Shown piece after piece: positions 411 to 25,263 of a stretch of DNA of 58,973 bases. This stretch comes from an uncultured Agathobacter sp. (GTDB taxonomy: Bacteria; Bacillota; Clostridia; Lachnospirales; Lachnospiraceae): contig CAMDYX010000010.1 of the NCBI GenBank assembly GCA_945910395.1, positions 1-58,973 on the forward strand. Direction: 5' to 3'. Within the stretch, counting starts at the first letter, position 1; each line of letters begins with the position of its first letter. The position numbers and the translations under genes are program-made. The notes under the pieces are model-generated. The model ran no database searches and was not told the DNA's origin. It saw only the letters and a program-made list of their open reading frames with translations.

Positions 411-414
411 GATT

Positions 415-4868: not shown

Positions 4869-4872
4869 AAGA

Positions 4873-4908
4873 GGCTTCCACCAATCTGGTGGAAGCCTTA
4901 TTTTTTTA
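4873..4908 (+). terminator. Intrinsic terminator after the response regulator
   Basis: A perfect 11-bp stem (AGGCTTCCACC/GGTGGAAGCCT) with a 5-base loop is followed by a T-rich run. It separates the regulator from the giant surface-protein operon, so that operon needs its own promoter. Confidence 0.93.
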
Positions 4909-5135: not shown

Positions 5136-8100
5136 ATGAAAAGAAAATTCAAAGAGAGAATGAAAAGAGCAATTGTGAAGCTGTTGGCGGCATCCATGGT
5201 TATCGGCTGTTTCGATGGCTTAAGCTTTGGTGGAGGAAGCAAAGAAAAATTAAATGTACTGGCTGATAATGGTATTATTACCAATAATCAGGTAAGTGAG
5301 CATTTGCCTACAGACTATACGATTGCCTATAGAGCAGATTTGACACCAAGTAATTCTACTGTGCCAATTGGGGATTCGGTTATCTTTGTACCAAATGGAT
5401 ATTCGGCAGGAGATACCACCAAAATCTATGGCAGTGTACCGGCGGGCTCTGCGGTCTTACGGCACGTTTCCTATCAGGATATCTGGTCGCTGATTTATAC
5501 CTATGACAGTGATACATTTGCCGTATGGGTAGACCGCTCGGCAGAGGGCTTTGATGATTGCGTTACCGGTGATCTTAGAAATAATTTCACATCTTACTAT
5601 TGTAGCGGTGGTGTGGTAGAGGACTTAAAGGGACGCACTTATGTGATGGATAAGGTGCCTTATTACCAGCAGGTTAAGATAGAACTAAAAAGAAATGGGG
5701 TTTCATGGTACTTAAAGGATAAATCCGAAGATACCACAGAAGAAATCCAGGAGAATATTGATGTATATTTGAAAGCTGATGGAAGATATTTTCCATTAAC
5801 CAATAATGGAGGTGGAACCTTCACCAGCGATTATGTCATGGCGGGAACCTATGAAATCTGGGTTAACTACAGCGGAGAAGATGTAAATACCTTTTACACA
5901 ATTACAGTAAAAGATACCATGTCTACCTATGTTCCGGAAGGCGGTGTAAAAAAGGAAGAAGCATCCGGAAACTGCAATGGAAAAAACTATTCAGTAAAAA
6001 GGGTAGATGGCAGTTGGGCTTTTTGTAGTGAAAATACATATTTGGCAACGGTTGAGTATGAAGACAAATTAGTAAATCTTTGTGTCCTAGAGAACTTTAA
6101 ATCAGGAAGCTCTTACGAGTGGGTACAGGGACTGTATGATGAAGCAAATGTAAAACCAACTGAAACTAAAAACCCGGATTACGTTCAGGTTTACAATCGT
6201 CTGTCTGGAGATGTTGGAGGATATCTGGAAGATATAACAAAGAATGTCTATAAAACGGACGAGAATCTGAATAAGGGTTATTATCTGAAAGCCATGAGTC
6301 TACAGGATTATCAGCGATACGATATCTATCTGGATTTGTATGGTGCCAATACAAAGACTGATGCGTTTGTGTATAATGGAACAGCTTCAAAAAGCGATAA
6401 TAGTGGTAGAAGTCCGGCAAACGTAAATCTGGTTCAGGTGCAGTTAAATATCCGTTCAGATAAAGATAGAACCGCCTTACAGGATGCTTTTGTAACCTTA
6501 CGAAACGAGGATGGCTGTGATGTGGCATTTCTGCAATACAATCAGGAGGCAACAGACAAGGCAAATGGTGAAAATAGCCCCTATAAAAATAGTATGGGAG
6601 ATAAGCAAATCTATTCCTACACTGCTCTTATGTTGCCGGGTACTGAAACCTACGATGTATTTGTGGATGAGCAGGATGTGCAGATAAAATTAGGCCCTAG
6701 CGATTCTGATATCAATACACGTATGGGGATAGTGGATTTCTATGCTCTGACGGTTCCTGTTTCTTTGGATAAGAAGTCTTGTGATCAGGCAGATATTACA
6801 GCTACGAACGGAGTACAGAAATACACCCTTCATACGGAAAAAGATGAGAATGGCACTCTTAAGACGGAAACGGTAGATGGCTATACCTATGCCCTCTGGG
6901 TGGCAGATGTGTTTAAAAACCCGAATGCACGGGTATATACGGTAAAAATTAATCCTTCCATTGATGATGGCGATGTTTTATCTGTACGTAATGACGGAGA
7001 CCATAAGTTGGCGGGACAGAAGTATTATAGTGTGAACTTCATGCAGAGTGCTGAGGAAAATGCGGCTGTCCATCGTCCACAACGTGTAGAGGAGGGCTCT
7101 ACTGCAATCAAACCGGAAAATCCATATAAGAGAGGAAGCAGCTTTGACAGTTGGGTAAAACGTGGGGAAAGCACTGCTTATGATTTCTCCAATCCGATTT
7201 TAAATACTACCAGAATAGATCCAATCTTCAATGAACCTGCGGTATTCATTAATGGATTCTTACGTACCGACAAGTTTGGTAATTTCCAACCGGATGGTAC
7301 CTGCTTTACGTTGCCGAATCTGACCTTATTTGGCTTTTCAGCAGAGGACGACGCTATTCGAAGCATGCTGGTGGAAGTCAGCAATATGGAGCAGATTATC
7401 ATTAAGCCAACTGATGCAGTTGCGACATCTCTTTCCCAGGGAAGCGGAGTGGCTCTTACTTCTGTTCCTGCATCCGAAGGCTATGAAGTCGGAACAAAAT
7501 CTTCAAATTCCAAAACCGTGTCAATCTATTTCATGACACCGGTGTCTGTGTTAAAAGCACAGAATTACATTCGTGATAACTTTATTTTTATTCCGCAGAA
7601 GGATGAGAATGGGAAAAATCTGACCAGTGAAGTGCGTGTGTCTGCGTCAGACGATAACATGAATACCACACCTTCTACAAACAGTGTTTCAGTAAATGTA
7701 TACAATCAGACCTGGCAGCCAATCAGCGGTGGAGTCAGATACAATTCGACACTTTATTCCGGATACTATTATCTGACAGGAAATCCAACCTATTATCCCA
7801 GCGGATCTCCGTCCAGTGGTTTAAATATCAGCGGATCGGTATACATTTATCTCAATGGATATACCTTAACCAGCAAAGGCTCTGATGGTAGCGGAACTAC
7901 GCCGGGGGGAGCCGGTATTCGTGTGCCCGGCGGCAGTTACCTGTATGTGATTGGACGCGGTACGGTAAAAGCAACCGGTGGTAGAGCCGGAAATGGTTCA
8001 AGCGGAAGCAGCGGTAGCGGCAGCGGAAATACCGGTGGTAGCGGTGGCTCCGGTGGTGGCGGCGCCGGTGCAGGTATCGGTACAGCCGGTGGCTCCGGTG

Positions 8101-11100
8101 GTAGCGGTGGTAGCGGTGACTATCAGTCTAGTGGTTGGAGTGGTAGTTCCGGTTCCAGTGCATCTTCCGCAGGTTATGTTTATAACTATAACGCTTCTAT
8201 GTACGTCTCTGGAGGAAGCGCTGGAAGCGGCGGTTCCGGTGGTTCCAATGGTGGTAATCTAGCCGGCGGCGGCGGCGGCGGAGGCGGCGGTGGCGCAGGT
8301 TATCAGTATGGCTCCGGCGGAGGCGGCGGAGGCGGCGGCGGTGGCGGCGGCGGTAAAGAAGAAAGAGACTGTAAAGCCGATTTGGCCGGCACCGGCGGAA
8401 AAGGTGGCAGCGGAGGAAGAGGTGCATCCTCCGGTAGCAGCGGTAGTGAAGGAAAGAAGGGAAGCTATGGAATATTCAATGGCACTTCCTCTTCGCACAC
8501 CGGTGGCAGCGGCGGCTCAGGAGGCGGCGCAAGCAGCGGAAGCTTGAGAACCTACAGCGCTACATTAGGAATTACCTATTATTCCGTTACCTTCCAGAAT
8601 GCGAAGAGCAATGGAGTCACGTACTATGACTTTTGCAATGCAAAGGGATCCAAATTTATCGTCGCACCGGAATATGCAGTAAAAAGCTCAAAAGAATACT
8701 TCCTTGGCTGGAGAATAAAGACAGTCGGAAAGACCATTGATACCAGCTATGAGCTGACTCAGACAACCAACAAGAGAATGTATCAACCGGGAGAGGTTAT
8801 CGAAATCAAACCGGGGACTTACGGTAATCTTGTATTCCAGGCTGTTTTAGAGCAGAAAGTAGGAATTCAGGCGACTTCAGAATATGAGCAGATTCCGGCG
8901 CTGCAATACAATCAGCCGACGAAATACTATTTATATGAGGTAAGAAGTACCTTGGATGGTGTAGCAACCTCCTTAGGAAAGAACTATACCATTAAAAAAG
9001 ATGATAAAGAGTATCCGTTGGCAATTGATTCTGAACCGGGATCAAACAGTACCATTTTAACCTCCTTGGGAACTTATGAGATTTTCGCAGATGGGGAAGA
9101 TACCGGCTTAACCGTAACGGGTGTGGAGTATGATGCCACAGTAGATAAAGCAACGGTTGGAACAGAAGTGCCATACGAAGCTTTACGTGTCTATGTGAAG
9201 GGATATACACCGGAGACTGTAAAATTAATCAGTACCACGACGAAGGCAGAAAATCCACCTACGTTAAGATATCAGGGACTGTGCGACGAAGAGGGTTACG
9301 AAGGTTACGCTTTGTATCGCTATGAGCGTCAGATTTTAGACTATAACGATCGTGTAACTGAATTGCCGAAGGACAGCTACTATGTATTGGTGGATGGCAC
9401 GTTTGTAGCTGCAACAGAAACCAACTGTTATTGGAAGAAAGAAAATCGGGCAGTTGTAAGCTACGATAAGTTCAGCCTTGTAGATGGAACCAAGACAATC
9501 TACTACTATTACGATGAAAATGATGAAGTAACAACAAGGGACGTTTATGCCCTTTTGGGAGAAAGTCCAATCGAACCGGAAACCGGTTTAGACCCTGTAT
9601 ATCTGCAGGAAAAGAACGATGCCGGTCTGTACAAATATAAAGTGGAATTGTCAGAGGATGTAATTACAGAAGAGAACACTTCGACTTATATTTATCAGAG
9701 CTCTCAGGGAAATATTAGCTTTGAACCGGTTATGAAGACAAGTGCTCCGAGTGAGCAGGAAACAAAAGAAATCGATGACAATACTTACTATGCATATCAT
9801 TTGAAGGTAGTGAAGGATGGAGCGGAACAAAACGAGGTTATAAAGGGAAGCGATGGAGAAGCGCTGGTTGTATATGTAGATAAGAACGGTGCCTCCATAT
9901 TACTTTCAGAAGAAACCTATGCAAAAATGGTTCCGGTTTATACCAATGTCCGGAAGATTGAGACCATTCCGCACTCTGTAATCGACAAGAATTCCACCAC
10001 CAAGGGTGAAGTGCGCGTAGATTATACCACTATAACCGTGGATATTGGCGGTAATGGAAAACTGGACAATGTTTCCTTAAAGAAAATTAGCAACGTAGAT
10101 GAAGAAGGAAGAATCAGCTACGGAGAAGTTATTTTCTTAGATTCCGTTGCAAAAGAGGGAGCAGACAGCCGTATCTATACGACAACCCGGTTAAAGGATA
10201 CGCAAGATGAAAAAACATCCTATGCACTGTTCATAAACGGAAGACCGGTCTATACCACAACATCTGTAGAAGTTGATGGTGTGGTAACAACACAGAAGAA
10301 CATCGTAACAACGGATTTTGGCGACAGCAATACAGTAAGAGCAAATGCCTATGATGTGAATGTTGTAACCAGATTGGATAGCAGAGCAGATTGGTTACCG
10401 GTGGAGGAAATCACGGTCAATGGAAACCCGGCAAAGAAAACAGAAAACGCCGGAATTTACACCTATAGTACCGTATCCGGAGACAATGCTACGGTATTTT
10501 CCATTACATCAGGTACAGATATCCAGTTACCACAGTTTGTATTGGATGTAAGCTCTAACGAAGCAGTTACGAAGTACATAGATTACTATAATGTGACATT
10601 CCATGATAATGTTCCGGGAAGTGCAGAAAACAAGGCGCTAAGAGTAGCCGTTCCTTCCAAGTTAATCGTAGCAAAAGGACATGAGGCAGAGCTTCCGGGC
10701 TTTTCAATCACGGAGGAAAAAACGGATACTTATGGTACATATACCGTATATGGCGATATCCCTACTCGTAGCGGATATACCTTCTTAGGCTGGTCCGAGA
10801 ATTCAAGTGCAACTGCGCCTACCTACACCATGGGTGATCACAATATTCTGGTAACGCAGCAGACAGAATTGTATGCAGTATGGCAGGTAAATACCTCCAT
10901 TGGCGGTACGGTTACATTTAATTATGGAACTATGGGTGCAAATGGTAATCTCATTTTGGCAGGTCAGGATAAGGATGAGACTGGTATCTATAATCGGAAA
11001 ACCTATGCGGTTTTAAAATTAGAAGCATTCAATGCTGAAGGAGAAAAGATTCCTGCACTGGGAGCTTTAGATAATGCTGCCACAAAATGGAATTATTACC

Positions 11101-14100
11101 GTCTGGTTCGTCCAAGTGAAATTGTTTATACATATACGTATAAGACAAGAGACGCAGAAACTGTCATTGATGTATTTAATAAAAATGCAACAGACCCGAG
11201 TCTGCCGGAAGAGAGCCAATGGGAACGCGCATATGAAACAGATGCTGAAGCAGCTGCTTTTGCAGCAGAAGACAATACAGCAAATCTTATCAAAACGTAT
11301 CTTGACTTGAAGACGAATGGTAAAATTATTGCTGGTCAGGATTTGCCTACCCAGAACATCTACTTTGTATATGACCAAACGGAAATTTATAACGATGCTG
11401 TTACTGTAAATGACGGTAATAAGGCTGATTACCTGTCCTTGTTACTGGGCGAAAAGGCAAAGGAAGGTGGTACAGAAGGCGAAAAAGAACCGGGATATGT
11501 TACTACACAGGATGGCGAAGGAAATGGAAGTCATGTAGAGGGCAAGATTGCTTATCCGCTTACAGGAGCAAGCTATTCTTATTCTTATTATGATGAGAGC
11601 AATGTGCAATCTGTTACGATTACTGTACCGGCAACACCAAGTACTTTATCAACAACTACAGTAGATCAGTATTTTGCGGATTATCGAACATATGAAGGAC
11701 AATATCAAAAATATTTGGAGGACAAAGCAAATACTACGGATATTTTCTTGAAATCAAGTAGTGTTCCGAATACCATTGCACAACCAGCGGTATTTAGTTA
11801 CCAATATAAATCCGGGGCGATTAATAAAACAGCAACAGTTGATATCAATGATAATGATAGTTGGAATGCATATGTAGGGCACAAAGAAAACGATGAGATT
11901 GTTGCTGGTTCTTTCTCATGCGAAAATACTATTTCAGAACAGCAATATACCTACCAGTATTATTCGGTTGTGACAGCAGCACGCCCGTCCATTTCAGCAG
12001 ATGCTGATGAAGCAACATGGAACACTTATAAGATTGCTTTGAATCAGTATATATCTGATTATAAAGCTTATAAAGAAAGCAGCTCATTGAAAGAAGTTGA
12101 AGCACTTTCCATTACTTTGGAGAGTGGTGAGTATACTTATAAAACCGTTAAGGTTCCGGAAGAAAAGAACGTAAAATGTTCCGTAGAAGTGACTGCAATT
12201 GCGGAGGATGGAACCATTACGGAAGCTCAAAAAACGTTAATCAATAAGTTCACGCAAGACTATACGGACGCACAGGCTGTAAACAATGAAAAAGGCTGGG
12301 TATTTAAAACCGACCTGCGCAGTGATCTTTCTTACGGTCAGTATCGTTATTCCTATGATAACGGAGCAGCAGTACAAAAGACTGTCCGTTTTAAGACAGC
12401 AGACTACGAGACGGAATTGCAGAAGTATACGGCATTCGTGGAGAAAGCGAAAGACAGTAGCTCACATATTTCTGATGTAACTGCACTTAAAACGGAAGAG
12501 CGACCATTGATCAGCTACAAGTACTCATATTACGCCTCAACCACTAGGGTTTCAAAATCGGATGCTAATTTTGAATCAGAGTATATAGGAAAGAAACTGG
12601 CAAGCGTGGGCGATGATGCGACAATAGAATTCTTGAAAGATTTATCAGGAGTAGAGGAAAGCTGTACAAAACTTGAGTATACTTGGGTTAAAACCCCGAA
12701 GGCAGTAGAAGTAAGAGCATTATCTTCTGAGAATAATCCAACGACGGATGATATTATAGCATTTTTCAATAATTATAAGACTGCAGAGGATGATGAAAGA
12801 ATTGAAGCTGGTGCAGAGAATACAGTTGAGAGCCTCAAAATAAATTACTCTTATCCTGACGAAAATGCAGACGGTGGTATAGCGACAGGAACGATAAAAT
12901 GGGGAGACGACGGCTGGGATACAGTAATGAAGCAGGAAAAACTGGCATTGTCATTGAATACAAAGACAAGCTGTTCCTACACTTATGTAATAAACGAAGA
13001 AATTCCGGAAACAGTAACCATTTCTCTCTTTGGCGAGGATGGAACGACTGCTACCAGTACCGCAGATGCAGATTTAGTAACTTATAAAGCACGTTTGGCA
13101 GATGCAGAGAATTCAGAATGTAAAAATAAGATTACTGTTCAATTACATCTGGTATCAGGAACAGTTAGAGGCGATGACTTTTTCTACTACAAGACAAAGG
13201 GAGATACTGCCCATAAGAATGTTTCTTTCGATGATTATGGCGAAAGCGAAGACGGAGGTACTGTAAATCCGGATGTACAGAAGGCCATTGATAAGTATAA
13301 TGAATTATCAAAATATGGTGCGGTTTCTAAGAACCTGGAGGTTAGCGTTCCGGTAGGACAGTACTCCTTTACAAATCTTCCAACCGTTTATAATGGTGAG
13401 ATAGTGGTATATCAGGTCAGTCTTGCAACTGATGTGGAGAGTAAGGAATTTATTACTTACTTGGAACGAAACACAGATGGTTTGCAGGATGGTTATAAAC
13501 AGAACTTTGTTTCCAAACGAGATGAAACCGGAACTCTGGACAAATATTATACGGTTGAAACGGAAAGTAAGCACGCTGATGTGAAGGATTCTGCTGGAAA
13601 TTCAACAGGAGAAGATGAGCGTGCAATTCAGACCGACTTTACCTTAAAATATCAGACTGGAACAAAAATGGTAAAAGTAGTTATTGAGACAGATGGTTCC
13701 TTCATAAATGCCACAGATCATTTGCCAACTCAGATTCAGGTATCTTTGAATGGAGTAAAGGCATCTGAGGAGTATTCTTTGAGTCTGTATCCGAAGGCAA
13801 AGGGAGACGGAAGCTATATCTATGAACAGACAGTAAAAATCCCTGAGAATGTGGATATTGATACTATGTCTATGAATAGAACACAATACAAATTCGGAAG
13901 TCAGCTAAGGAGTCCTTCAACAGTAGAGAACGATTTAGGATACTTTATCTATCGGTCAGAAGAAACTACAACAGAGAATGAAGTAAGAGTATTTAATGGC
14001 AAAATCGTTGAAAAAGTCGCAAATATTACCTTTGTGAAAGGAACTACAGAAACGGTTTCCAATATGCCTTCCGGTGCAAGAGTATTCTATGGTAAGAATT

Positions 14101-17100
14101 ATGTGCTTCCGGTAAATGTACCGGTGCGCAAAGGATATTCCTTTGAAGGATGGAGTGTAGGCGAACAGGTTTATCAGCCGGGCTACAGCAGTATGGTTAA
14201 TAGTGATGTTACCTTTACTGCAACATGGGAACCACATGAATACACGGTTACCTATGCAGAGGTAAATGACGTATCGGATATAGATGATGAAGCAAAATAT
14301 CCGAAGAAATTTACCTATGCTCAGGGTGGAACTTTTGAAGTTGGAATTCCTTCAAAATCTGGATACATTTTTGCTGGATGGGAAGCAAAGGGAGCTACCA
14401 TTTCAAAAAAGAGCGAGAGTGATTTGACAGCAATCGTACCGAGGGATGAGCAAAGAAATATTACGCTTACCGCAATCTGGAGAAAGGCTGCCTCAATTGG
14501 AATCCTTTATGAAAATATGGAGGAAGGAGAATTTATAAAGCCTGATGGAACGGATGCAGAGAAGATTGCCTTCTATCAGGAGAAAACAGATCAGGAGATA
14601 CCGGCAGCAAAGAGAACCGGCTATATTTTCAAAGGCTGGACAGTATACAATAATGGTGAAACACAGGAACTCGTTAATGGTGAGACGGGAGCTGTTATAC
14701 TTTCAGATATGACCTGTAGTGGCGAGTTAATCTTAAAGGCGAACTGGGAGCCAAGGAGATACGGATTCACCTACAAACTGATACCATATTGGGAAGGGGA
14801 TACGGACCAGACCATAGCAGATTTGAGAGTTGGAAAAGCATATACATTAGGTCTGGATGCGGACAACAATGAGACAAGGGCAGAAACAACACAGCATATT
14901 TATGATACCAGAACGCTCATTTCCGATCCGACCAATGCAGATCCATACTACAAATTTGCAGGATGGACACAGACGATTAATTCGAATATAACGAAGAATC
15001 TGGTCATTGGCGAACGGGATTATACCGATACGATTGAACTGACCTCTACTTGGGAACCGGAGAGATGGGAGATTGAATATCAGGCAGGTAAGGATGCAAA
15101 TGGTAAGGAAGTAACCGATGCAACCTTTAATTCAGGCAATCCAACCGAATATCTGTATGCGACAGCCTTTAAGGATAATCCAGATAGTGATAGTGATGGA
15201 GAACCTGATATTACTATTAATGGCAATAAGATTGAGAATCCGGTACGGGAAGGCTACAGATTTACCGGCTGGACGGTACAGCAGCAGTACGAAGTATTTG
15301 TGCCGAAGGTAGAAAAGCGGGGAGACGAGTATACGTTTAGTGAGTCCGGTACATGGAAGACCATCACAAAGGAGGTTGTACAGGACGCGGATAAGACACA
15401 CCTTTCATTTACAGAAGATATTTATGTGGATGCAACGGACGCAGATGAAGAACCTACAAAGAAACTGACCTCCGGAAATCTGCAGATTAAGGGAGCCTTC
15501 GAGGTAGAAAATGATGAAAGCGATACATCCTTCATCAAGGATATCTCTCTTTTAACACATGAACAGCTGGAGGCTATGCACAATGAAGAGGTAACTCTCT
15601 ATACGCAGAATACCAAGGCAAAACTGATTCTTACAGCAAACTGGGAACCATACGAGTACAACTTGATTTACCATGTGGATTATCCGGTGGAATATACACA
15701 GAAGGATTCAAACGGCAATCCGATGCCCTTTACAAATACCTATGATGGAAAATGGAACAACGCTTTTGCTTGGGACGAATACGTAATAGGGAATGCTGAT
15801 AAAGACAATAAAAAGGCAACAAAGAAGTATGCAATTGATCTGACTTTGATCGGCTTTTCCGGAGCTACAAGACCGGAAATGAGTCCTGATATGCAGGATT
15901 TGGTGGATACTGATAAAATCGGTGCGGTAAACTATAGTTTTGTCGGCTGGTCTGAAACGAAGCCAAACTTCGTTATTAATCAGGCAGTTTGGGCAGAAAA
16001 TCCGGATGTTACTGCACAACCGGAGGAAGACTACTATATTCAGGCAACCTACTATAAGACCGGAGACGACAGTTCCATTACCTATACCAGAAATGGTCGT
16101 TATGATGGAGATACCTTAAATCTGTATGCAGTCTTTGAGCGTGATGTATATCTGAAAGGAAACATAACGTTCAATTATTCCAATGTCTCTATTCACGACA
16201 AGGGAGACCTCTCTACGAAGGTAGTTGCAGAGGGTGACGATGCCGTTGATGAACTGACACTGACAGTTAAGCGAATCAACATGCTTACGGGAGAAGAGGA
16301 TAAGAACTGGACGCCGAATGCATATGAAGGTAAGAAAACCGTAACAATCCCGGTTGCAGTAAGTGAAAATAGACTTACCGGAAGCGCAAGCTATGATTTT
16401 GGTCATTTCCCTCGTGCAGATGAATTTGGTAATATTTTCCGCTATGAAATCGTCGCAGAGCCGATTGAAAACTATACGGAAGAGCGAGAGCTAACCATTT
16501 ATCCGGGAGAGGTAAACTTTATAGAAACCTATGCACCGGACCGCTTTGAGGCGTCCTGGAACGTAGCACTTGTACAGGGCAGAGGAGCAAATAAGGATAT
16601 CCCAGCAGCAATTAAAGTGATGCCGATGTACTTAAAAGACGGTGAGTGGATTGACCTCTTTAAGGAAGAATGGGTGGATGTAGAAACACGCTTTATCACG
16701 GAACTTACTTATGACCCAGAACAGTCTGCTTATGTAGGAGACATTTTCCTGCCAAGTACAAGTTTGGGTAATACGGATAAAGAGCGAATTTATAGTTACC
16801 GTCTGTACAAGGTTGGTTATGAATCAACGGATGGTACAGAACTGAACTGGAAATTTGCAGAATATGCAGAAGGCTTGAGCTTTGAAATGGGAAGCACCCG
16901 CGTTTCCAAGTCAAAGAACAAGGCAATGACAGGAACCATTACCTTACAGGATATTACGGCACCTGTTATTAAAGTTACCTATGCACCAAGCGAAGACGCA
17001 GGAACAAAGACGCTGACTACCGGAAATATTACCTTGGATGCTTCTGTTTCCATGACGGTTTCAGCAGTAGATGACTATCTGAAATCTCTGGAGTATTATT

Positions 17101-20100
17101 GGGGAGAACCGGGTGGACCGGCTGCGGAAAAAGTGGATGAAAGAAAATGGAAGACCATGGAAAATAACGATTGTGTTGTTCCGCAGGAAGGCAGTCAGGT
17201 GCTTTACGTAAAAGCTGAGGATTTGGACGGCAATGTAACCTATTTCAGATCCGGAACAATTACGGTAAAGGGCACTCCAACGATAGGCGGTGTTGATCCG
17301 GATAAGCAGAATGAAGAATATTATCCGGGACAGGGAATCGAGCTTCCGGGAAGTGATCCAAGTGATGGTGGAAGTCAGCTTCCGTTACCTACGGAAAAAG
17401 AGCCTGAATTGGAAAATACACAGGTATCCTTCAAAGATCCTGAGTCTGTAAAAGGTACGGATAAGGATGGTAACGAGTATGAGTACAATCCACAAGATAA
17501 GGGCATTACGGAAAAAGACCCGGATGGAACGGAATTTAAAAAGCAGTACCCGTCAAATGTGGTTACCGAAGAACAGCCTGGTGACGATGGTTCTACTTTT
17601 ACATGGACCCCGGATGAGACAACTCCTACAGATGGTGATGGCGCATTAAAGGAAGAAAAGCCGGATGGAACCGAGTATGAGAAGAAGTATCCGGATGGAA
17701 CCGTAACCAAGAAGGAGCCTCCACAGAACGATGGTGATCCTACTACTGTGATTACCAAGAAGCCTGCAAATCCGGAAGATTCTGATTCGAAGGAAACCAT
17801 TACAAAGACCTTTGATCTTGATAATAATGAGAAATATACTTATTATCCGGATGATGATAAGATTGAGTATAAGGATCCTGATGGTAGTAATACCTATGAG
17901 TTTAATCCAACAGGTGGACCAAATGGAGAACCACAATATACGAAGAATGGAATTCCAGAGAATCCAAACTCTAATCCGATTGATGATGAAATCAAGAAGA
18001 AACTTCTTGACGAAAGAGAAAATCTTTCAAAGGAAAAAGATGATATAGACAAAGAGGAAGAGATTCTTGATCAAGAGAAGGAGCGATTAGAAGAAAAGAG
18101 TAAGGAACTGGATAAGGTAAAAGACATCCTGGATGATAAGGAAGAGGGTACGACTCATGCAAAGGATGATAAGGATGACACAGATTATGAAATCGAGTAT
18201 GATTTGAAGAATCCTTCTGAAACACCTGCAAAGGACAGCATTGAAAAAATCACTCATACCGATAAGGATGGAAATAAGTATACGGAAACCTTTGATGAGA
18301 AGGGTAAGGGAAAAGATATTTCCCACACCACAAAAGATCCGAATGGAAACGATGTTAAATATCAGTGGATACCGGATGATAAAGACAATCCGGATGGATC
18401 AGGCAAATTTGTGATTACCGATCCGGACAATCCGGAACATCCAAGAGAGTATACTTGGACACCTAGCGGAGTATTCCCTGACCTATTACCTGGAAGCTTC
18501 TCACCGGAAAATGGTACACAGCCAGCTGAGCCTTCTGATGAGGAGAAAGAAATCTTCAAGGATCTTCGTAAGGAAATGGAGAAAATCAATGATCTGAAGG
18601 ATGATCTGACGGATCCGAACAAGAAGAAGGAATCGGAACCGGAAAAAGCAGTACCGGCTTTGGAATACCAGATTGACTTGGAGAATAAGCAGGTAATTGC
18701 AACGGACGGAGACGGTAACCGCTATGTATGGACACCGGATCCAACAGACCAGACATATCCAAATGGCAGAGGAACACTTACCATGACGGATAAGGATGGA
18801 AATCCGCTTCCGAATACAGAAGAGAACCAGAAGCTGGCACAGAGCTTAAAGAAGAAGTTGTCAGAGAAAGAAAGAGGTACACTTCCGTATACCGATAGTG
18901 ATGGAAATACTTATGATGTTGAATATGATCTAAGGAAACAAGATGTGATTACTCGGGTAACTGATCCGAAGACCGGATCGCCGGTAGATGATTCGAAAAA
19001 GGATGAGTTGGAGAAGGATTTGACCGGTGACGACGATCCAACAAAGACCGTGGTTCACTATAAAGACCCGGAGAAACCGGATCAGACCTACGACATCGAA
19101 TTACCGGATAATAAGGTCTCTACCAAAGATCCGGATGATGATATCACCTATACCTTTATTCCGAATCCGAGTGGTACGGAAGGTAAATTGGTATGGACAG
19201 AGGAAGATCCGAACGGAAAAACCTATACTTACACCTATGATCCAAGCGATAATGGTGGAAACGGATCCTTTAAGCGAACAGAATTAGATGAGAATGGCAA
19301 TCCGAAACCTGACACAACAAAACCTGTGCTAAGTGACAAATTGGATGATCCGGTAGGAAATACCACCTATGAGCAGCATAAAAAACAGATTTACGAAGAA
19401 CTGAAAAAGCACCAGATTCCACAGAATCCGGACGGCTCTTACAGATTGGATGAGCCTGGAGATTATGACATTGAGATTCTGGATAAGGATGGAAAGCCGG
19501 TAGATGATCCACTTAGTATTACCATTTTGGATGAAGATAAGTTCGGCGATGAAGATGTGCCATATCCGGAGAATCCAAACGCATGGCATCCAACCGGAGA
19601 AGAGGGAGAACAGGAACGTACCGGAAAGGATGGTACGGTCGAGACCGAAGTCCAGGGAGTATTAGACCCGGATAAGTTCTCATTCCCGATAGATGTTGGA
19701 GTAGAACCGGGCGGAACACCGCAAGATGGTAAGAGAAACAACTACACTAAGACGGTAACAAAGGGACCGGGAGCACCTGCTACCAAGGTTAACAATTCCA
19801 TTCAGGATCTGATTTTGGCAGTATTGACATTAACCAATGCTGATGGAAGTGCAATACCAAGCAGTAGTGAAGACGGTAAAATGATTACAGCAATGACGAA
19901 TGCACTTACAACACCGGGAAGCGAAGTGGATATTCTCACAACCGTTTCTGCACAGAGCGAATCTCAGGTTCCGACAGGATCCAAGAAACGTCTGAATACA
20001 AAGCTTGAGCAGATGGGTGGAGAGAAGATTGCATACCTCGATATCCGTATGAAGGCAATTGTTACCATTGGTAATGCGACTGCGACAGAATATCCGATTA

Positions 20101-20894
20101 CGAGAACCGCTTCGAAGGTTTCCTTCAGCGTTGATGTACCGGAATCTCTGGCAAACGTACCGAGCGGATATACTCGTTCCTACATGGTGCTTCGTGATCA
20201 TGGTACTTCGACAACTGCTTTGACCGATTGGGTAACTCCGGTAAATGGCAAGCTGAACTTTGAGTCAGATTTGTTCTCACCTTATGCAATTATCTGTAAG
20301 GATACTAGAACACCATATAATGTGATTTCCGATGTAGGAGATTCCACTATGGACGCAGTAAGAGATGCAGCCAATCCGATTCTTGCTCCGATTACGAACC
20401 TTATCGAGCTGATCCTTAACAACGCAGATGCGAAAGAGGACGACCAGAAGAATCCATCCAAGAGAGGACATTCCGATAACACCGGTGATGGCACAGAGGA
20501 AGAAAACGGGTATGCAGATTTAGTAAAGCAAACAGAAACAGAAGAGACTGGGGAAAGCGAATCCGAGAATTCTACCGAGAGTAATGTAATCCCGGAGGAT
20601 GAGGATACGGATGATACCTCTGGAAGAGGAACCTTTGTTATCTTAAATCTTCTTTTAACATTAGTCTCCGTCCTGCTTCTTGCCGTTACGATTTTTAGAA
20701 GAAAGAGCTGCAAAGGCAATCTTGTGGCTGCCCTTGCAACCATAATTCTTCTGCTTGTGACTACTGGTTTTGGAAGGGTTGTATTTGTAAATTGGTGGAC
20801 CATAGCCTTTGCAATTCTATTTATCCTGCAGCTTGGTATTTTCTACTATACGAACAACAAGAAGGAAGAGGTTAAAAATGAAGGACGCTTATAA
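5136..20894 (+). CDS. Giant (5252-residue) multidomain surface protein
   Basis: A single uninterrupted frame of 15.8 kb with AGGAG before the ATG. Parts in order: Sec signal peptide (residues 1 to about 43, ending LNVLA); N-terminal region with an InlB-like segment near 632-695; a glycine/serine-rich tract (about 915-1142); further B-repeat-like segments near 1145-1240 and 1868-1918; a stretch of degenerate tyrosine-rich repeats (about 2140-2750); a cluster of InlB B-repeats recognisable by GY.F.GW and TW/AVW endings (about 2958-3668); an Ig-like domain (about 3940-4045); a long D/P/K-rich repeat stalk with DKDGN and YTWTP motifs (about 4056-4850) holding a charged coiled coil (about 4282-4335); a final globular domain (about 4870-5058); and three C-terminal membrane helices (about 5166-5188 and 5196-5240) instead of an LPXTG signal. 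It is most likely a very long adhesin or surface fibre held by its C-terminus. The next gene overlaps its end by 17 bp and begins an acylation enzyme set. Confidence 0.85.
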   Translation: MKRKFKERMKRAIVKLLAASMVIGCFDGLSFGGGSKEKLNVLADNGIITNNQVSEHLPTDYTIAYRADLTPSNSTVPIGDSVIFVPNGYSAGDTTKIYGSVPAGSAVLRHVSYQDIWSLIYTYDSDTFAVWVDRSAEGFDDCVTGDLRNNFTSYYCSGGVVEDLKGRTYVMDKVPYYQQVKIELKRNGVSWYLKDKSEDTTEEIQENIDVYLKADGRYFPLTNNGGGTFTSDYVMAGTYEIWVNYSGEDVNTFYTITVKDTMSTYVPEGGVKKEEASGNCNGKNYSVKRVDGSWAFCSENTYLATVEYEDKLVNLCVLENFKSGSSYEWVQGLYDEANVKPTETKNPDYVQVYNRLSGDVGGYLEDITKNVYKTDENLNKGYYLKAMSLQDYQRYDIYLDLYGANTKTDAFVYNGTASKSDNSGRSPANVNLVQVQLNIRSDKDRTALQDAFVTLRNEDGCDVAFLQYNQEATDKANGENSPYKNSMGDKQIYSYTALMLPGTETYDVFVDEQDVQIKLGPSDSDINTRMGIVDFYALTVPVSLDKKSCDQADITATNGVQKYTLHTEKDENGTLKTETVDGYTYALWVADVFKNPNARVYTVKINPSIDDGDVLSVRNDGDHKLAGQKYYSVNFMQSAEENAAVHRPQRVEEGSTAIKPENPYKRGSSFDSWVKRGESTAYDFSNPILNTTRIDPIFNEPAVFINGFLRTDKFGNFQPDGTCFTLPNLTLFGFSAEDDAIRSMLVEVSNMEQIIIKPTDAVATSLSQGSGVALTSVPASEGYEVGTKSSNSKTVSIYFMTPVSVLKAQNYIRDNFIFIPQKDENGKNLTSEVRVSASDDNMNTTPSTNSVSVNVYNQTWQPISGGVRYNSTLYSGYYYLTGNPTYYPSGSPSSGLNISGSVYIYLNGYTLTSKGSDGSGTTPGGAGIRVPGGSYLYVIGRGTVKATGGRAGNGSSGSSGSGSGNTGGSGGSGGGGAGAGIGTAGGSGGSGGSGDYQSSGWSGSSGSSASSAGYVYNYNASMYVSGGSAGSGGSGGSNGGNLAGGGGGGGGGGAGYQYGSGGGGGGGGGGGGGKEERDCKADLAGTGGKGGSGGRGASSGSSGSEGKKGSYGIFNGTSSSHTGGSGGSGGGASSGSLRTYSATLGITYYSVTFQNAKSNGVTYYDFCNAKGSKFIVAPEYAVKSSKEYFLGWRIKTVGKTIDTSYELTQTTNKRMYQPGEVIEIKPGTYGNLVFQAVLEQKVGIQATSEYEQIPALQYNQPTKYYLYEVRSTLDGVATSLGKNYTIKKDDKEYPLAIDSEPGSNSTILTSLGTYEIFADGEDTGLTVTGVEYDATVDKATVGTEVPYEALRVYVKGYTPETVKLISTTTKAENPPTLRYQGLCDEEGYEGYALYRYERQILDYNDRVTELPKDSYYVLVDGTFVAATETNCYWKKENRAVVSYDKFSLVDGTKTIYYYYDENDEVTTRDVYALLGESPIEPETGLDPVYLQEKNDAGLYKYKVELSEDVITEENTSTYIYQSSQGNISFEPVMKTSAPSEQETKEIDDNTYYAYHLKVVKDGAEQNEVIKGSDGEALVVYVDKNGASILLSEETYAKMVPVYTNVRKIETIPHSVIDKNSTTKGEVRVDYTTITVDIGGNGKLDNVSLKKISNVDEEGRISYGEVIFLDSVAKEGADSRIYTTTRLKDTQDEKTSYALFINGRPVYTTTSVEVDGVVTTQKNIVTTDFGDSNTVRANAYDVNVVTRLDSRADWLPVEEITVNGNPAKKTENAGIYTYSTVSGDNATVFSITSGTDIQLPQFVLDVSSNEAVTKYIDYYNVTFHDNVPGSAENKALRVAVPSKLIVAKGHEAELPGFSITEEKTDTYGTYTVYGDIPTRSGYTFLGWSENSSATAPTYTMGDHNILVTQQTELYAVWQVNTSIGGTVTFNYGTMGANGNLILAGQDKDETGIYNRKTYAVLKLEAFNAEGEKIPALGALDNAATKWNYYRLVRPSEIVYTYTYKTRDAETVIDVFNKNATDPSLPEESQWERAYETDAEAAAFAAEDNTANLIKTYLDLKTNGKIIAGQDLPTQNIYFVYDQTEIYNDAVTVNDGNKADYLSLLLGEKAKEGGTEGEKEPGYVTTQDGEGNGSHVEGKIAYPLTGASYSYSYYDESNVQSVTITVPATPSTLSTTTVDQYFADYRTYEGQYQKYLEDKANTTDIFLKSSSVPNTIAQPAVFSYQYKSGAINKTATVDINDNDSWNAYVGHKENDEIVAGSFSCENTISEQQYTYQYYSVVTAARPSISADADEATWNTYKIALNQYISDYKAYKESSSLKEVEALSITLESGEYTYKTVKVPEEKNVKCSVEVTAIAEDGTITEAQKTLINKFTQDYTDAQAVNNEKGWVFKTDLRSDLSYGQYRYSYDNGAAVQKTVRFKTADYETELQKYTAFVEKAKDSSSHISDVTALKTEERPLISYKYSYYASTTRVSKSDANFESEYIGKKLASVGDDATIEFLKDLSGVEESCTKLEYTWVKTPKAVEVRALSSENNPTTDDIIAFFNNYKTAEDDERIEAGAENTVESLKINYSYPDENADGGIATGTIKWGDDGWDTVMKQEKLALSLNTKTSCSYTYVINEEIPETVTISLFGEDGTTATSTADADLVTYKARLADAENSECKNKITVQLHLVSGTVRGDDFFYYKTKGDTAHKNVSFDDYGESEDGGTVNPDVQKAIDKYNELSKYGAVSKNLEVSVPVGQYSFTNLPTVYNGEIVVYQVSLATDVESKEFITYLERNTDGLQDGYKQNFVSKRDETGTLDKYYTVETESKHADVKDSAGNSTGEDERAIQTDFTLKYQTGTKMVKVVIETDGSFINATDHLPTQIQVSLNGVKASEEYSLSLYPKAKGDGSYIYEQTVKIPENVDIDTMSMNRTQYKFGSQLRSPSTVENDLGYFIYRSEETTTENEVRVFNGKIVEKVANITFVKGTTETVSNMPSGARVFYGKNYVLPVNVPVRKGYSFEGWSVGEQVYQPGYSSMVNSDVTFTATWEPHEYTVTYAEVNDVSDIDDEAKYPKKFTYAQGGTFEVGIPSKSGYIFAGWEAKGATISKKSESDLTAIVPRDEQRNITLTAIWRKAASIGILYENMEEGEFIKPDGTDAEKIAFYQEKTDQEIPAAKRTGYIFKGWTVYNNGETQELVNGETGAVILSDMTCSGELILKANWEPRRYGFTYKLIPYWEGDTDQTIADLRVGKAYTLGLDADNNETRAETTQHIYDTRTLISDPTNADPYYKFAGWTQTINSNITKNLVIGERDYTDTIELTSTWEPERWEIEYQAGKDANGKEVTDATFNSGNPTEYLYATAFKDNPDSDSDGEPDITINGNKIENPVREGYRFTGWTVQQQYEVFVPKVEKRGDEYTFSESGTWKTITKEVVQDADKTHLSFTEDIYVDATDADEEPTKKLTSGNLQIKGAFEVENDESDTSFIKDISLLTHEQLEAMHNEEVTLYTQNTKAKLILTANWEPYEYNLIYHVDYPVEYTQKDSNGNPMPFTNTYDGKWNNAFAWDEYVIGNADKDNKKATKKYAIDLTLIGFSGATRPEMSPDMQDLVDTDKIGAVNYSFVGWSETKPNFVINQAVWAENPDVTAQPEEDYYIQATYYKTGDDSSITYTRNGRYDGDTLNLYAVFERDVYLKGNITFNYSNVSIHDKGDLSTKVVAEGDDAVDELTLTVKRINMLTGEEDKNWTPNAYEGKKTVTIPVAVSENRLTGSASYDFGHFPRADEFGNIFRYEIVAEPIENYTEERELTIYPGEVNFIETYAPDRFEASWNVALVQGRGANKDIPAAIKVMPMYLKDGEWIDLFKEEWVDVETRFITELTYDPEQSAYVGDIFLPSTSLGNTDKERIYSYRLYKVGYESTDGTELNWKFAEYAEGLSFEMGSTRVSKSKNKAMTGTITLQDITAPVIKVTYAPSEDAGTKTLTTGNITLDASVSMTVSAVDDYLKSLEYYWGEPGGPAAEKVDERKWKTMENNDCVVPQEGSQVLYVKAEDLDGNVTYFRSGTITVKGTPTIGGVDPDKQNEEYYPGQGIELPGSDPSDGGSQLPLPTEKEPELENTQVSFKDPESVKGTDKDGNEYEYNPQDKGITEKDPDGTEFKKQYPSNVVTEEQPGDDGSTFTWTPDETTPTDGDGALKEEKPDGTEYEKKYPDGTVTKKEPPQNDGDPTTVITKKPANPEDSDSKETITKTFDLDNNEKYTYYPDDDKIEYKDPDGSNTYEFNPTGGPNGEPQYTKNGIPENPNSNPIDDEIKKKLLDERENLSKEKDDIDKEEEILDQEKERLEEKSKELDKVKDILDDKEEGTTHAKDDKDDTDYEIEYDLKNPSETPAKDSIEKITHTDKDGNKYTETFDEKGKGKDISHTTKDPNGNDVKYQWIPDDKDNPDGSGKFVITDPDNPEHPREYTWTPSGVFPDLLPGSFSPENGTQPAEPSDEEKEIFKDLRKEMEKINDLKDDLTDPNKKKESEPEKAVPALEYQIDLENKQVIATDGDGNRYVWTPDPTDQTYPNGRGTLTMTDKDGNPLPNTEENQKLAQSLKKKLSEKERGTLPYTDSDGNTYDVEYDLRKQDVITRVTDPKTGSPVDDSKKDELEKDLTGDDDPTKTVVHYKDPEKPDQTYDIELPDNKVSTKDPDDDITYTFIPNPSGTEGKLVWTEEDPNGKTYTYTYDPSDNGGNGSFKRTELDENGNPKPDTTKPVLSDKLDDPVGNTTYEQHKKQIYEELKKHQIPQNPDGSYRLDEPGDYDIEILDKDGKPVDDPLSITILDEDKFGDEDVPYPENPNAWHPTGEEGEQERTGKDGTVETEVQGVLDPDKFSFPIDVGVEPGGTPQDGKRNNYTKTVTKGPGAPATKVNNSIQDLILAVLTLTNADGSAIPSSSEDGKMITAMTNALTTPGSEVDILTTVSAQSESQVPTGSKKRLNTKLEQMGGEKIAYLDIRMKAIVTIGNATATEYPITRTASKVSFSVDVPESLANVPSGYTRSYMVLRDHGTSTTALTDWVTPVNGKLNFESDLFSPYAIICKDTRTPYNVISDVGDSTMDAVRDAANPILAPITNLIELILNNADAKEDDQKNPSKRGHSDNTGDGTEEENGYADLVKQTETEETGESESENSTESNVIPEDEDTDDTSGRGTFVILNLLLTLVSVLLLAVTIFRRKSCKGNLVAALATIILLLVTTGFGRVVFVNWWTIAFAILFILQLGIFYYTNNKKEEVKNEGRL
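7880..8560 (+). repeat. Glycine/serine-codon low-complexity tract inside the giant gene
   Basis: About 680 bp made largely of GGT, GGC, GGA and AGC codons, with runs such as GGCGGCGGCGG, encoding a Gly/Ser-rich stretch of roughly 230 residues (about residues 915-1142). It is far more GC-rich than the surrounding DNA. It opens with a GGAGIRV-PGGSYLYVIGRG-type segment that looks like a right-handed beta-helix turn. The tract creates several spurious open frames on both strands, and such runs are prone to replication slippage. Confidence 0.85.
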
Positions 20895-21966
20895 AAACCG
20901 AATCAATATGTTTGATTTCTCAAAGGGAACAGCAATGCTATTGATTTTATCCGTACACACCCTGGGACGTTATGATTTCTTTCATAATTCACCGGCGTTA
21001 TGGTTCTGGATGACGATTGCTTATCCCGGAACAGCGGCCTTATTCCTAGTGATGGGTTATTGGTACAAACAAAAAAGAACCGGGCAGCTCCTTAGGGAGC
21101 TGTGGAGTTCTGCCTTAAAGATTTATGCCATAACAGGCCTCGTTTCCGTGGTTGCTGTTCCTATGTTTTCATGGACAGATCCGGCTTATGCGGAACATAT
21201 TAATTCAAAAACCTTAGGCGTTTTTCTGGGGTATCTGTTAGGATACGACACCAGCGTGATGCTTGGAGATGTGATTGTCTGGGAGATTGGTGCAATGTGG
21301 TATGTGCTAGCATATATCATTGGCATCCTGATTTTAAATCTGATTTTTTCCACGGGATTGCAGGAAAAACATAAATGGATCATAGCTGTTTTTGTTTTTC
21401 CTCTGGCAATCCTGGGATTGGTTTTCGGCAATTCCATGCTTCCCTACTGTCTGCCTCAGGTTCTGGTGACGGTTCAGACGCTGTTTTATGGATACGTGCT
21501 TCGGCAGAATGGTATGATGAACCGAAAATGGAACGTCAAAGACTGGCTGCTTCTGGTACTGGGCTGTGTAGGTACACTGGGAGTCTTTTTTGGTGTTTCT
21601 CTGATTATTGGCGGAATCGGCGGTATGTATAACCGCGCAGCAATGCTGTTTGCAGTTCCTGCGGGAACCATGCTACTTAGACTGGGGCAGTTTTTGCAGA
21701 AGAGAGACTGGTTAATTACGAATCTCATCAGCGTAATCGGAAGCAAAAGTATTCTTCTGATGGCGATTTTTGCAGTGGAAAATGTTGCCATTAACTGGAA
21801 CCATATTGCGAATAGTAATATAATGCCAAAGAATCAAGTGGTCAATGCATTGCTGATTTTAGCACTACGCACAGTGATTTATACAGGAGTTGTATTGTTG
21901 ATTCCAATCATAAATCAACTGTTTGGAAGGATGCGGCTAAGCATTTTGGGAAAAGGCAGGAAATAA
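20878..21966 (+). CDS. Acyltransferase-3 family membrane protein
   Basis: A polytopic membrane protein of 362 residues from ATG 20878, preceded by GAAGGAAGAGG and overlapping the giant gene's last codons by 17 bp; the longer frame to 20809 lies inside the giant gene and has no ribosome site. It has about ten hydrophobic helices. The N-terminus RINMFDFSKGTAMLLILSVHTLG matches the acyltransferase-3 (AT3) pattern, in which the first helix carries a basic residue and an essential His. AT3 proteins move acyl groups across the membrane onto sugars or other surface acceptors. Here the two downstream genes encode an AMP-forming ligase and an acyl carrier protein, which could supply the acyl group, while the gene upstream encodes a giant surface protein. 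The acceptor (that protein or a wall polymer) is inferred only from this context. No SGNH domain is fused. Confidence 0.82.
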   Translation: MKDAYKNRINMFDFSKGTAMLLILSVHTLGRYDFFHNSPALWFWMTIAYPGTAALFLVMGYWYKQKRTGQLLRELWSSALKIYAITGLVSVVAVPMFSWTDPAYAEHINSKTLGVFLGYLLGYDTSVMLGDVIVWEIGAMWYVLAYIIGILILNLIFSTGLQEKHKWIIAVFVFPLAILGLVFGNSMLPYCLPQVLVTVQTLFYGYVLRQNGMMNRKWNVKDWLLLVLGCVGTLGVFFGVSLIIGGIGGMYNRAAMLFAVPAGTMLLRLGQFLQKRDWLITNLISVIGSKSILLMAIFAVENVAINWNHIANSNIMPKNQVVNALLILALRTVIYTGVVLLIPIINQLFGRMRLSILGKGRK

Positions 21967-21969
21967 GTT

Positions 21970-23403
21970 ATGACATTTTATGAATGCCTGGGAAGGTTAT
22001 GCAAGGGCTTTGGGAATACTAAGGCCTTTTGTGATATATATAGAGATAATGCAATCTATACCTATGAGCAGTTCTTTTCGGATGTGAAAAGGTATATGGG
22101 ATATTTTCAAAATTGCAGCGCATATCGTATTGCGATTATGGGTGCCGGTTCCTATGAGTGGGTGTGTCAGGTCTATGGCGCTTTGGCGGTGGGAAAAAAC
22201 ATCATTCCCCTTGATCCATACCAGAATCTGACCAATCTGACAGCAATGCTGCGGTATTCGGAAGCGGAAATGATTTTGCATGATGAACCGGATGCGGAAT
22301 TTGAAAAAGCATTTTCAAAGGAACTGCATCTTTGTTACAGAGGATATATAAAGGAACAGGAGCTTCCTCAAAATCAGCCGCTTTTGCCGGAAAACGGAAC
22401 CATGATGTTTTTTACCTCCGGAACGAATAGCAAAGTCAAGGGAACCATTATTGATTTGGAGCGTTTCTGGAACAGCCTGGAACCGGGCATCCCGATATGG
22501 AACGAAGGAATTACCTTTGGACCGGGGATAAACGGAGAGCAGATTAAAATTTATATTCCAATCCCGATGCAGGCCATTTATGGAAGCTGCATGTGCCTGT
22601 TGTATCTGATGCAGGGAAGCTGTATTTATTTTGGAAATGCTAGAAAATTTGTTACGGAATTGATTGATATTGATCCCCATATTATGGTGGGCGTATCCAC
22701 CATGATTCAGATTCTTTTGCAGGTAAAAAAGCCCCAAAACCTTCAAATGGTCATGTCTTCCGGAGGACCCTGCAAGGAAGAACTCTATCAGTCCGCATTA
22801 GAAAAAGGCTTTGAAATCCGGAATATTTACGGTGCTTCGGAGCTGGGAGGTCTTGCTTTTAACAAGTGCGGGAAAGCGATTTCCCACCTGACACCTCTGA
22901 CCGGAAATGAGATTCGCATTGATGAAAAAAACGTAATCTGGATACGTTCTGCAAATAGGATGTTAGGGTACTACAATATGCCGGAGGAAACGGCAGCACT
23001 CTATGATGGAGAATGGTTTACCCTGGATGATCTGGGTAGCTGGAACGAAGACAAAACATTTCGTATTGAAGGCAGAAGCAAGCATATGATTGCCATGGAA
23101 AATGGCGCCAAGCTTTATCTGGAAGAAATTGAAGAACGGTTGGAAAAGATACCGGAAGTAAAAGAAGCAGGGATTCTTTATCTGAACCAGAAAATTATTG
23201 CGGTACTGGTTGTGGACAGCGATAGTCAGGCTGAGGTTGTGCAAAATGGAATCCGGGAGTACAATAGAGATCAGGAATTTCAGTATAAGATTGCAGAAAG
23301 CTGGATTCGAAAAGAGCCGCTTCCGCGGCTGGAATTAAACAAAATTGCCAGAAAAGTGCTGGAAGAGCAGTATTTGGATAAGAATGAGAGGAAGATACCA
23401 TGA
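21970..23403 (+). CDS. AMP-forming acyl/amino-acid ligase (ANL superfamily, DltA-like role)
   Basis: A 477-residue adenylating enzyme. Visible core motifs: the phosphate-binding loop TSGTNSKVKG (about residues 150-160), the A5-type motif NIYGASE (about 290), the LDDLG motif that replaces the usual TGD (about 352), the hinge GRSKHMIAMENGAKLYLEEIE (about 367-388), and the catalytic lysine region LELNKIARK near the C-terminus. Length is close to that of DltA and free-standing adenylation domains. Such enzymes activate a carboxylic acid with ATP and load it onto a carrier protein's phosphopantetheine arm. The next gene, overlapping by 4 bp (ATGA), is that carrier. The substrate cannot be read from the sequence, so D-alanine, another amino acid or a short acyl acid all remain possible. 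It starts 3 bases after the AT3 stop. Confidence 0.85.
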   Translation: MTFYECLGRLCKGFGNTKAFCDIYRDNAIYTYEQFFSDVKRYMGYFQNCSAYRIAIMGAGSYEWVCQVYGALAVGKNIIPLDPYQNLTNLTAMLRYSEAEMILHDEPDAEFEKAFSKELHLCYRGYIKEQELPQNQPLLPENGTMMFFTSGTNSKVKGTIIDLERFWNSLEPGIPIWNEGITFGPGINGEQIKIYIPIPMQAIYGSCMCLLYLMQGSCIYFGNARKFVTELIDIDPHIMVGVSTMIQILLQVKKPQNLQMVMSSGGPCKEELYQSALEKGFEIRNIYGASELGGLAFNKCGKAISHLTPLTGNEIRIDEKNVIWIRSANRMLGYYNMPEETAALYDGEWFTLDDLGSWNEDKTFRIEGRSKHMIAMENGAKLYLEEIEERLEKIPEVKEAGILYLNQKIIAVLVVDSDSQAEVVQNGIREYNRDQEFQYKIAESWIRKEPLPRLELNKIARKVLEEQYLDKNERKIP

Positions 23404-23630
23404 CAAGAGAAGAAGCAAAAGACGTCGTATTTGAAGCAATTCAGGCCATATTGGATTGCAAAGGTATCTGTCTGACAGAAGAACTGGATTTGGTAGATGA
23501 ATTGGGATTCAGCTCCCTTACCTATTTCATCCTCCTTGCCAGAATCGAAGAGAAGAGCGGCAAGCGAATTCCGGAGCGGAAGGCACGCAGAATGGAAACT
23601 GTAAAGGATATCATCGATGCCTTGCTGTAG
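23400..23630 (+). CDS. Acyl/peptidyl carrier protein (DltC/ACP-like)
   Basis: A 76-residue carrier protein. The phosphopantetheine site is Ser39 in ELGFSSLTYF, where the usual D-S-L is S-S-L; the helix pattern around it and the end (RRMETVKDIIDALL) are typical. Its start overlaps the ligase stop (ATGA), so the two are translationally coupled. With the ligase and the AT3 protein it forms a three-part route: activation, carriage, and transfer at the membrane. No terminator is evident after it before the GGDEF gene 62 bp downstream, so read-through is possible. Confidence 0.88.
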   Translation: MTREEAKDVVFEAIQAILDCKGICLTEELDLVDELGFSSLTYFILLARIEEKSGKRIPERKARRMETVKDIIDALL

Positions 23631-23635
23631 GGGAG

Positions 23636-23680
23636 CTTCTTTTGCCTTGCACATCGCCATTGGCTTAATTTTATTACTAC
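23636..23680 (+). repeat. Short intergenic repeat, copy 1
   Basis: The sequence between the carrier-protein gene and the GGDEF gene contains CTTTTGCC, GCACA, CC-TTGGCTT and TTATTAC in that order. The same words in the same order recur just after the GGDEF gene (25036-25078). The copies thus flank the GGDEF gene as imperfect direct repeats of about 43 bp. No function is assigned. Confidence 0.4.
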
Positions 23681-23692
23681 GGAGCAGATAAA

Positions 23693-25030: not shown

Positions 25031-25035
25031 GACGT

Positions 25036-25078
25036 TTCTTCTGCCACGCACAGCACCCTTTGGCTTGGAAATTATTAC
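25036..25078 (+). repeat. Short intergenic repeat, copy 2
   Basis: Second copy of the element at 23636-23680: CTTCTGCC, GCACA, CC-TTTGGCTT and ATTATTAC in the same order. It sits between the GGDEF stop codon and the terminator at 25092. Confidence 0.4.
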
Positions 25079-25091
25079 AATTAATTAAAAG

Positions 25092-25130
25092 GTGGGAAAA
25101 TGAGCAATCGCAAGTTTTCCCACTTTTTTT
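25092..25130 (+). terminator. Intrinsic terminator, repeated copy A
   Basis: The stem GTGGGAAAA/TTTTCCCAC, extended by TG/CA, is followed by eight Ts. It ends the GGDEF transcript. The whole hairpin and about 50 following bases recur at 29212-29302, downstream of the second adhesin gene. In the rest of the intergenic region (25131-25260) I see only AT-rich sequence. Confidence 0.9.
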
Positions 25131-25263
25131 GTTTGCTTCTATTGAGGAAGTGAGATCTTGAGAAACGGAGATTTTGAGGGACTGGATTTGGTGAATTTTG
25201 CTAACTGTGATTCTAAATAGACTAAAAGCGCTGGGATTTTTTAATGAATTTCGCCAATGATTT

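Follow-up and report, generated by a model that had tools for sequence, protein, structure and literature searches.

What is an acyltransferase with its own acid-activating ligase and carrier protein doing at the end of a giant surface protein gene? The question is raised by a contig of an uncultured Agathobacter sp. (CAMDYX010000010.1; G000:C10), taken here over its entire length of 58,973 nucleotides, referred to as the window, and belonging to a 3.14-Mb draft genome. In the window, the gene of a giant surface protein, hereafter the giant, is followed directly by genes for an AT3 membrane acyltransferase, an ANL-family ligase and an acyl carrier protein (Table 1). As read from the sequence, the gene order, the protein families, the intact ligase and carrier motifs and the grouping of the transferase with carrier-coupled AT3 enzymes suggest a carrier-fed AT3 set. 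It would transfer an acid to an envelope glycan, and its expression is probably tied to that of the giant in this genome. Taken whole, we consider this explanation reasonably probable.

The four genes are closely packed. The giant and AT3 genes overlap by 17 bp, a gap of 3 bp separates AT3 from ligase, and the ligase and carrier genes overlap by 4 bp; the list of open reading frames (ORFs) also holds a longer, TTG-started frame for the AT3 that begins at 20809. The Pfam matches of the AT3 (PF01757, 39.9 bits; cut-off 31), the ligase (PF00501, 94.8 bits; cut-off 29.9) and the carrier (PF00550, 24.0 bits; cut-off 20.8) all exceed their thresholds. ORF coordinates and Pfam matches thus agree with a preliminary description of the locus, which had given this layout, the families and the phosphopantetheine serine of the carrier. 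For the region from giant to carrier, our analysis adds the three membrane-type segments at the end of the giant and the scoring of the ligase with acyl-CoA synthetases. Scanning of 20700-25500 found no terminator-like site on the + strand between 20700 and 24886, which makes a single transcript for giant, AT3, ligase and carrier plausible, and the GAF-GGDEF gene downstream possibly shares it.

Ligase residues F148-T152, K157, G288, E291, D354, R369 and K458 are invariant among seven ligases, and T149, G151, K157, E291, D354 and K458 are invariant in both of our alignments, A1 and A5, as expected of an ANL enzyme. We take these kept residues to represent the P-loop, the A5 Glu, the A7 Asp and the A10 Lys. 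The ligases of the sets are otherwise diverse, the window enzyme sharing 18-28% identity with the 16 other members of alignment A5. Its closest solved relative in the PDB is FadD13, the NCBIfam models with the highest scores are those of acyl-CoA synthetases and of MenE, and an acyl-ACP synthetase is also found among the matches to the ligase family profile. DltA was absent from the best 25 of 75 NCBIfam matches (any DltA match lies under about 57 bits), from the 20 PDB matches of the window ligase and from the best 60 of 67 matches to the ligase profile. The carrier is of the fatty-acid acyl carrier protein type, with low scores; of its 11 NCBIfam matches (E ≤ 0.1), all but AsbD are models of acyl carrier proteins, and none is DltC. 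The column of Ser39 holds serine in all 19 carriers aligned, the window's and 18 from other sets. No claim for an amino acid or for a fatty acid as the loaded substrate can be based on these features.

The set recurs beyond the window. A ligase search of 397 genomes of the family (E ≤ 1e-20) gave matches in 19, its own genome counted, and led to three AT3-ligase arrangements with no giant protein in the stretches examined (L065, L066 and L069). The order is carrier-AT3-ligase-CotH in L065 and AT3-ligase-carrier-ligase-carrier in L069. L066 has a single frame of 1,191 residues (120-3695, - strand) that joins the AT3 with two ANL ligase domains, the first of which lacks a P-loop by eye. A four-row AT3 profile, built from the window enzyme and these three, found relatives in 31 of the 397 genomes. 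None of its rows came from the 28 new genomes that it ranked; three of the 28 (G153, G217 and G369) had stretches already examined via their ligases. The best 20 of the 28 were taken for neighbourhood analysis, and a ligase or carrier gene lay within 2 kb of the AT3 on the same strand in nine of ranks 1-10 and one of ranks 11-20. A 15-row AT3 profile matched 17 of 383 genomes of the order, 12 of them new, and the set was present in six of the 11 examined. At phylum level nine of 269 genomes matched, eight of them new, and the set was present in none of the six examined.

In total, 20 neighbourhoods from 19 genomes were collected, the window's included. AT3, ligase and carrier all lie within 2 kb in 13, AT3 and ligase in two (the L066 fusion and one at a contig end), and AT3 and carrier in five, with a ligase further off in L231, L238 and L273. 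Judged by gene content, AT3, ligase and carrier are a recurring set within this bacterial family; it is also an uncommon one, since most searched genomes lack an AT3 of the group described below. Scanning of named genomes with the single ligase sequence found nothing. Scanning with the ligase alignment led to 80 loci whose ligases are distant (20-31% identity), and a match to the AT3 group was seen at none of these loci. The two best matches to the alignment, at 24% identity, are labelled Lachnospiraceae, which points weakly to this family for the organism of the window.

Of the 55 AT3 rows placed in a tree, the window enzyme and 23 others form a group with support of 100/98. A ligase gene, a carrier gene or both lie within 2 kb in 23 of its 24 rows, the window's among them, and we call it the carrier-coupled AT3 group. 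With L276 left out, a 23-row group still holds the window, at 100/100. Coupling requires two label changes on the tree, compared to a mean of 17.8 in shuffles. The window's own genome encodes ten other AT3s, and the stretches examined around them show no match to a ligase or carrier. Together with the 13 full triplets and the L066 fusion, this coupling bears out the earlier view of ligase, carrier and AT3 as a working set.

Motifs of the transferase bear on which donor it uses. Its only match at E ≤ 0.1 is to PF01757, with none to the MBOAT family of DltB. R/K-X10-H and RxxR are reported in two papers as essential AT3 motifs and proposed binders of acyl-CoA (PMC7448272, PMC9558356), and RxxR is described there as not absolutely conserved (PMC7448272). 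The first motif is kept, as K16-X10-H27 in the window AT3; among the 23 coupled rows, 22 fit its pattern. RxxR is incomplete in the window enzyme, where Leu75 occupies the first-Arg column, as placed by two AT3s of the same genome with the complete motif. This column is basic in none of the 24 group rows (18 Gln, 3 Ser, 2 Leu, 1 Thr) versus 24 of 30 other rows. Because the group rows are related, a single event on the tree may account for the loss in all 24. The loss is in keeping with a donor that lacks the adenosine phosphate of coenzyme A and, with the coupling and the fusion, suggests AT3 enzymes that would draw on a dedicated carrier and not on coenzyme A.

The surroundings of the relatives point to the acceptor. 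By Pfam matches of the neighbours, 13 of the 19 other neighbourhoods lie among genes for polysaccharides or teichoic-type polymers: glycosyltransferase, flippase, sugar-nucleotide or polysaccharide-export-type genes surround L231-L235, L237, L238, L243, L270-L272 and L276, and a gene of CDP-glycerol glycerophosphotransferase type is close to L069. As these sets mostly sit in sugar-polymer clusters, the giant is probably not the modified molecule; an envelope glycan is the most likely target of the set, which in the window is most likely expressed along with the giant. Close to the AT3-carrier pair, alpha/beta hydrolases, lipoprotein-like, were also seen in L231 (1893-2732), where the gene adjoins the carrier, and in L238 (9459-10343), where it lies one gene further; such a hydrolase is a possible outer partner or esterase.

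From the families, the coupling and the fusion, we propose the following steps. The ligase would activate a carboxylic acid with ATP and attach it to the carrier's phosphopantetheine arm, and the loaded carrier would dock at the cytoplasmic face of the AT3. The AT3 would then move the acyl group through the membrane; outside, its likeliest acceptor is a hydroxyl group on an envelope glycan or on a polymer of teichoic type. Encoded at the 3' end of the gene of a giant membrane-anchored protein, the set is probably co-expressed with the giant, and this protein more likely acts as a partner to the surface layer that is modified than receives the acyl group itself.

The giant itself ends in three membrane segments, a layout similar to that of FILTED-domain proteins (NF052597), although by eye the charged stretch between its first two segments is shorter. 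Its tail scores 22.1 and 25.6 bits against this domain, under the cut-off of 40. Of 61 other genomes of the genus, 12 have ORFs that weakly match the C-terminal 403 residues, and none of the 61 has a match to the N-terminal 805-residue stretch. Sixteen FILTED matches above cut-off were found in 15 of 299 genomes; where the ORF is short or has many segments, as for some of them, the match looks like a chance one to membrane sequence. A role of AT3, ligase and carrier as a processing set for FILTED tails was rejected, as none of 13 tails had a ligase, carrier or group-AT3 match within 6 kb. These 13 are the matches of the 16 that have more than 5 kb downstream; two giant hosts end at contig edges. 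These hosts, L082 122-16135 (5,337 residues) and L089 265-11736 (3,823 residues), are giant FILTED-tailed surface proteins of relatives whose contigs stop just past the gene. In L089, a gene that by eye resembles a response regulator lies directly upstream of the giant protein gene, as in the window. The window also encodes a second InlB-repeat surface protein of 1,265 residues downstream of the operon (25351-29148); its SPKTSD and hydrophobic tail resemble, by eye, a sortase signal, unlike the three-segment tail of the giant.

Three other explanations were weighed. The preliminary description proposed the giant, or a polymer bound to it, as the acyl acceptor, and on this account the set would acylate the giant itself, or a glycan on it, while it emerges. 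The 17-bp overlap and the lack of a + strand terminator-like site between the genes speak for such a link, as do the large secreted proteins that follow the set in L234 (12291-16748; 1,485 residues) and L270 (12453-16895; 1,480 residues). These two proteins, however, are orthologues of one another (45% identity) that lack a BLAST match to the giant (E ≤ 1), lie 232-266 bp downstream of the set, and do not occur near L235, a sister set, in the stretch examined. No secreted ORF of more than 2,000 residues lies within 6 kb in any of the 19 other neighbourhoods, 14 of which hold 6 kb on both sides (L065, L066, L230, L231 and L243 hold less on one or both), and the overlap of the set with a giant gene was seen once, in the window. 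The set is likewise absent beside the 13 FILTED-type tails, with both giant hosts cut by contig ends, and the N-terminal part of the giant is missing from the 61 other genomes of the genus. Triplets that usually lack a surface protein had been named beforehand as grounds against a giant acceptor, and this is largely what the survey found, with L234 and L270 accompanied by secreted proteins of about 1,480 residues. Together with the 13 polymer-gene neighbourhoods, this leaves the giant an unlikely acceptor. The L234 and L270 orthologues were also seen to differ in their wall anchor, one having SLH domains and the other choline-binding-type repeats.

The AT3 might instead use ordinary acetyl-CoA, with ligase and carrier serving another step, such as acyl loading of a cytoplasmic sugar nucleotide or lipid; more generally, ligase and carrier could feed another transferase. 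A 2022 review favours acyl-CoA, not a carrier protein, as the likely AT3 donor (PMC9558356). The R/K-X10-H motif, proposed for acetyl-CoA, is kept, and the second Arg of RxxR is rare everywhere (1 of 24 group rows, 6 of 30 others), which weakens the motif argument. Against an acetyl-CoA donor stand the coupling that tracks the AT3 tree, the L066 fusion and the loss of the first basic RxxR residue throughout the group, and we regard this explanation as rather improbable. A further alternative is a decaying cassette from a polysaccharide locus, its frames still open and its AT3 step no longer catalytic. The window AT3 has one of the longest branches of its group (2.11; L238, 2.18) and a top identity of 25%, and only two of 59 other genomes of the genus searched match it, both weakly. 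It also carries Phe298 at a column where 23 of the 24 group rows, all but its own, and 24 of the 30 rows outside the group have His, so the enzyme may be altered or failing, and Phe298 counts against full activity. Yet the three frames are intact and tightly packed, the ligase core residues and the carrier serine are kept, and the His298 column differs as well in six of the 30 AT3s outside the group; decay thus appears very unlikely.

Besides the donor preference in the review, the rare second Arg, the possible second transferase, the long branch and Phe298, several findings weigh against a carrier-fed set that acylates a glycan. One group row, L236, has neither ligase nor carrier nearby. A tree that places the window outside the other 23 rows is not rejected (approximately unbiased test, p-AU 0.171), so the window AT3 may be sister to them. 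Four of the 19 other neighbourhoods (L229, L230, L273 and L274, the last judged from its likeness to L273, without Pfam) lie among other genes with the set standing alone, and L065 and L066 are on short contigs of 5.0 and 3.8 kb. The window proteins scanned include no polysaccharide synthesis genes, so the glycan acceptor rests on the relatives; the other proteins scanned are of two-component, chemotaxis, hydrogenase, glycosidase and housekeeping types.

The favoured carrier-fed set has a wider form, on which we are evenly divided: the whole AT3 group may have left acyl-CoA for a ligase-loaded carrier, giving a second trans-membrane route for carrier-bound acyl groups, independent of DltB, with loss of the CoA-side Arg as its mark and with the set coupled to a giant here. 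The acyl supply of AT3 enzymes is an open question, the published view being an acyl-CoA donor and not a carrier (PMC9558356). A ligase and carrier that travel with the AT3, one fusion and one replaced motif residue offer a direct way to test donor choice, and the set points to acylations other than acetylation on bacterial surface polymers. Searches of an open-access library, which leaves out most subscription papers, brought up no description of an AT3 with its own ligase and carrier, in agreement with the earlier statement that no described system with this gene set was known.

Features of the locus lie alongside others in the window. A cobalamin riboswitch (2687-2881, 82.9 bits) precedes a small gene (3026-3445) for a DUF4430 protein, a domain known from B12-binding proteins. 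A T-box leader (35920-36154, 120.4 bits) precedes a gene (36236-37957) whose product is a class II tRNA synthetase that contains an editing domain and is likely specific for proline. Subunits resembling a membrane-bound hydrogenase, then maturation genes hypF, hypD and hypE-like, occupy 42587-53857, and at 54952-57519 a Fic-domain gene lies directly upstream of a type I restriction methylase (HsdM) gene.

Table 1. Coordinates of the giant gene, the acylation set and flanking features in the window.
Feature	Position	Strand	Details
Terminator-like hairpin	4871..4899	+	Strong; 13 pairs, 7 G-C, then T run; between upstream response regulator gene and giant gene
Giant surface protein gene, 5,252 aa	5136..20894	+	Signal segment; several repeats of InlB/List_Bact type; stretches rich in Gly and acidic ones; membrane tail of three segments
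AT3 membrane acyltransferase, 362 aa	20878..21966	+	PF01757; ATG at 20878
ANL-family acyl-AMP ligase, 477 aa	21970..23403	+	PF00501; core residues intact
Acyl carrier protein, 76 aa	23400..23630	+	PF00550; phosphopantetheine Ser39
GAF-GGDEF protein	23693..25030	+	PF00990, 66.1 bits; starts 62 bp downstream of carrier gene

Among known systems, the dlt system joins a ligase, a small carrier and a multi-pass membrane transferase, and moves an acyl group to the outside. The window set shares this logic of ligase, carrier and membrane transferase with DltA-DltC-DltB-DltD and may be described as AT3 acylation with a dlt-like supply. Its transferase, however, is an AT3 and not an MBOAT, its ligase resembles acyl-CoA synthetases, its carrier is without a DltC match, and no DltD-like match was found among the window proteins scanned. 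Of the dlt parallel drawn in the preliminary description, the shared logic and the replacement of MBOAT by AT3 hold, whereas the ligase is acyl-CoA-synthetase-like and not a DltA. With the AT3 enzymes OafA/OafB, Oac, OatA and CmmA, the window enzyme shares its family and a K-X10-H near the N-terminus; their reported donors are acyl-CoA, according to the review (PMC9558356), whereas the window set has a dedicated ligase and carrier and its first RxxR Arg is replaced. The ligase belongs to the same sequence family as FadD13, MenE and AasS, but its gene adjoins those of a carrier and an AT3.

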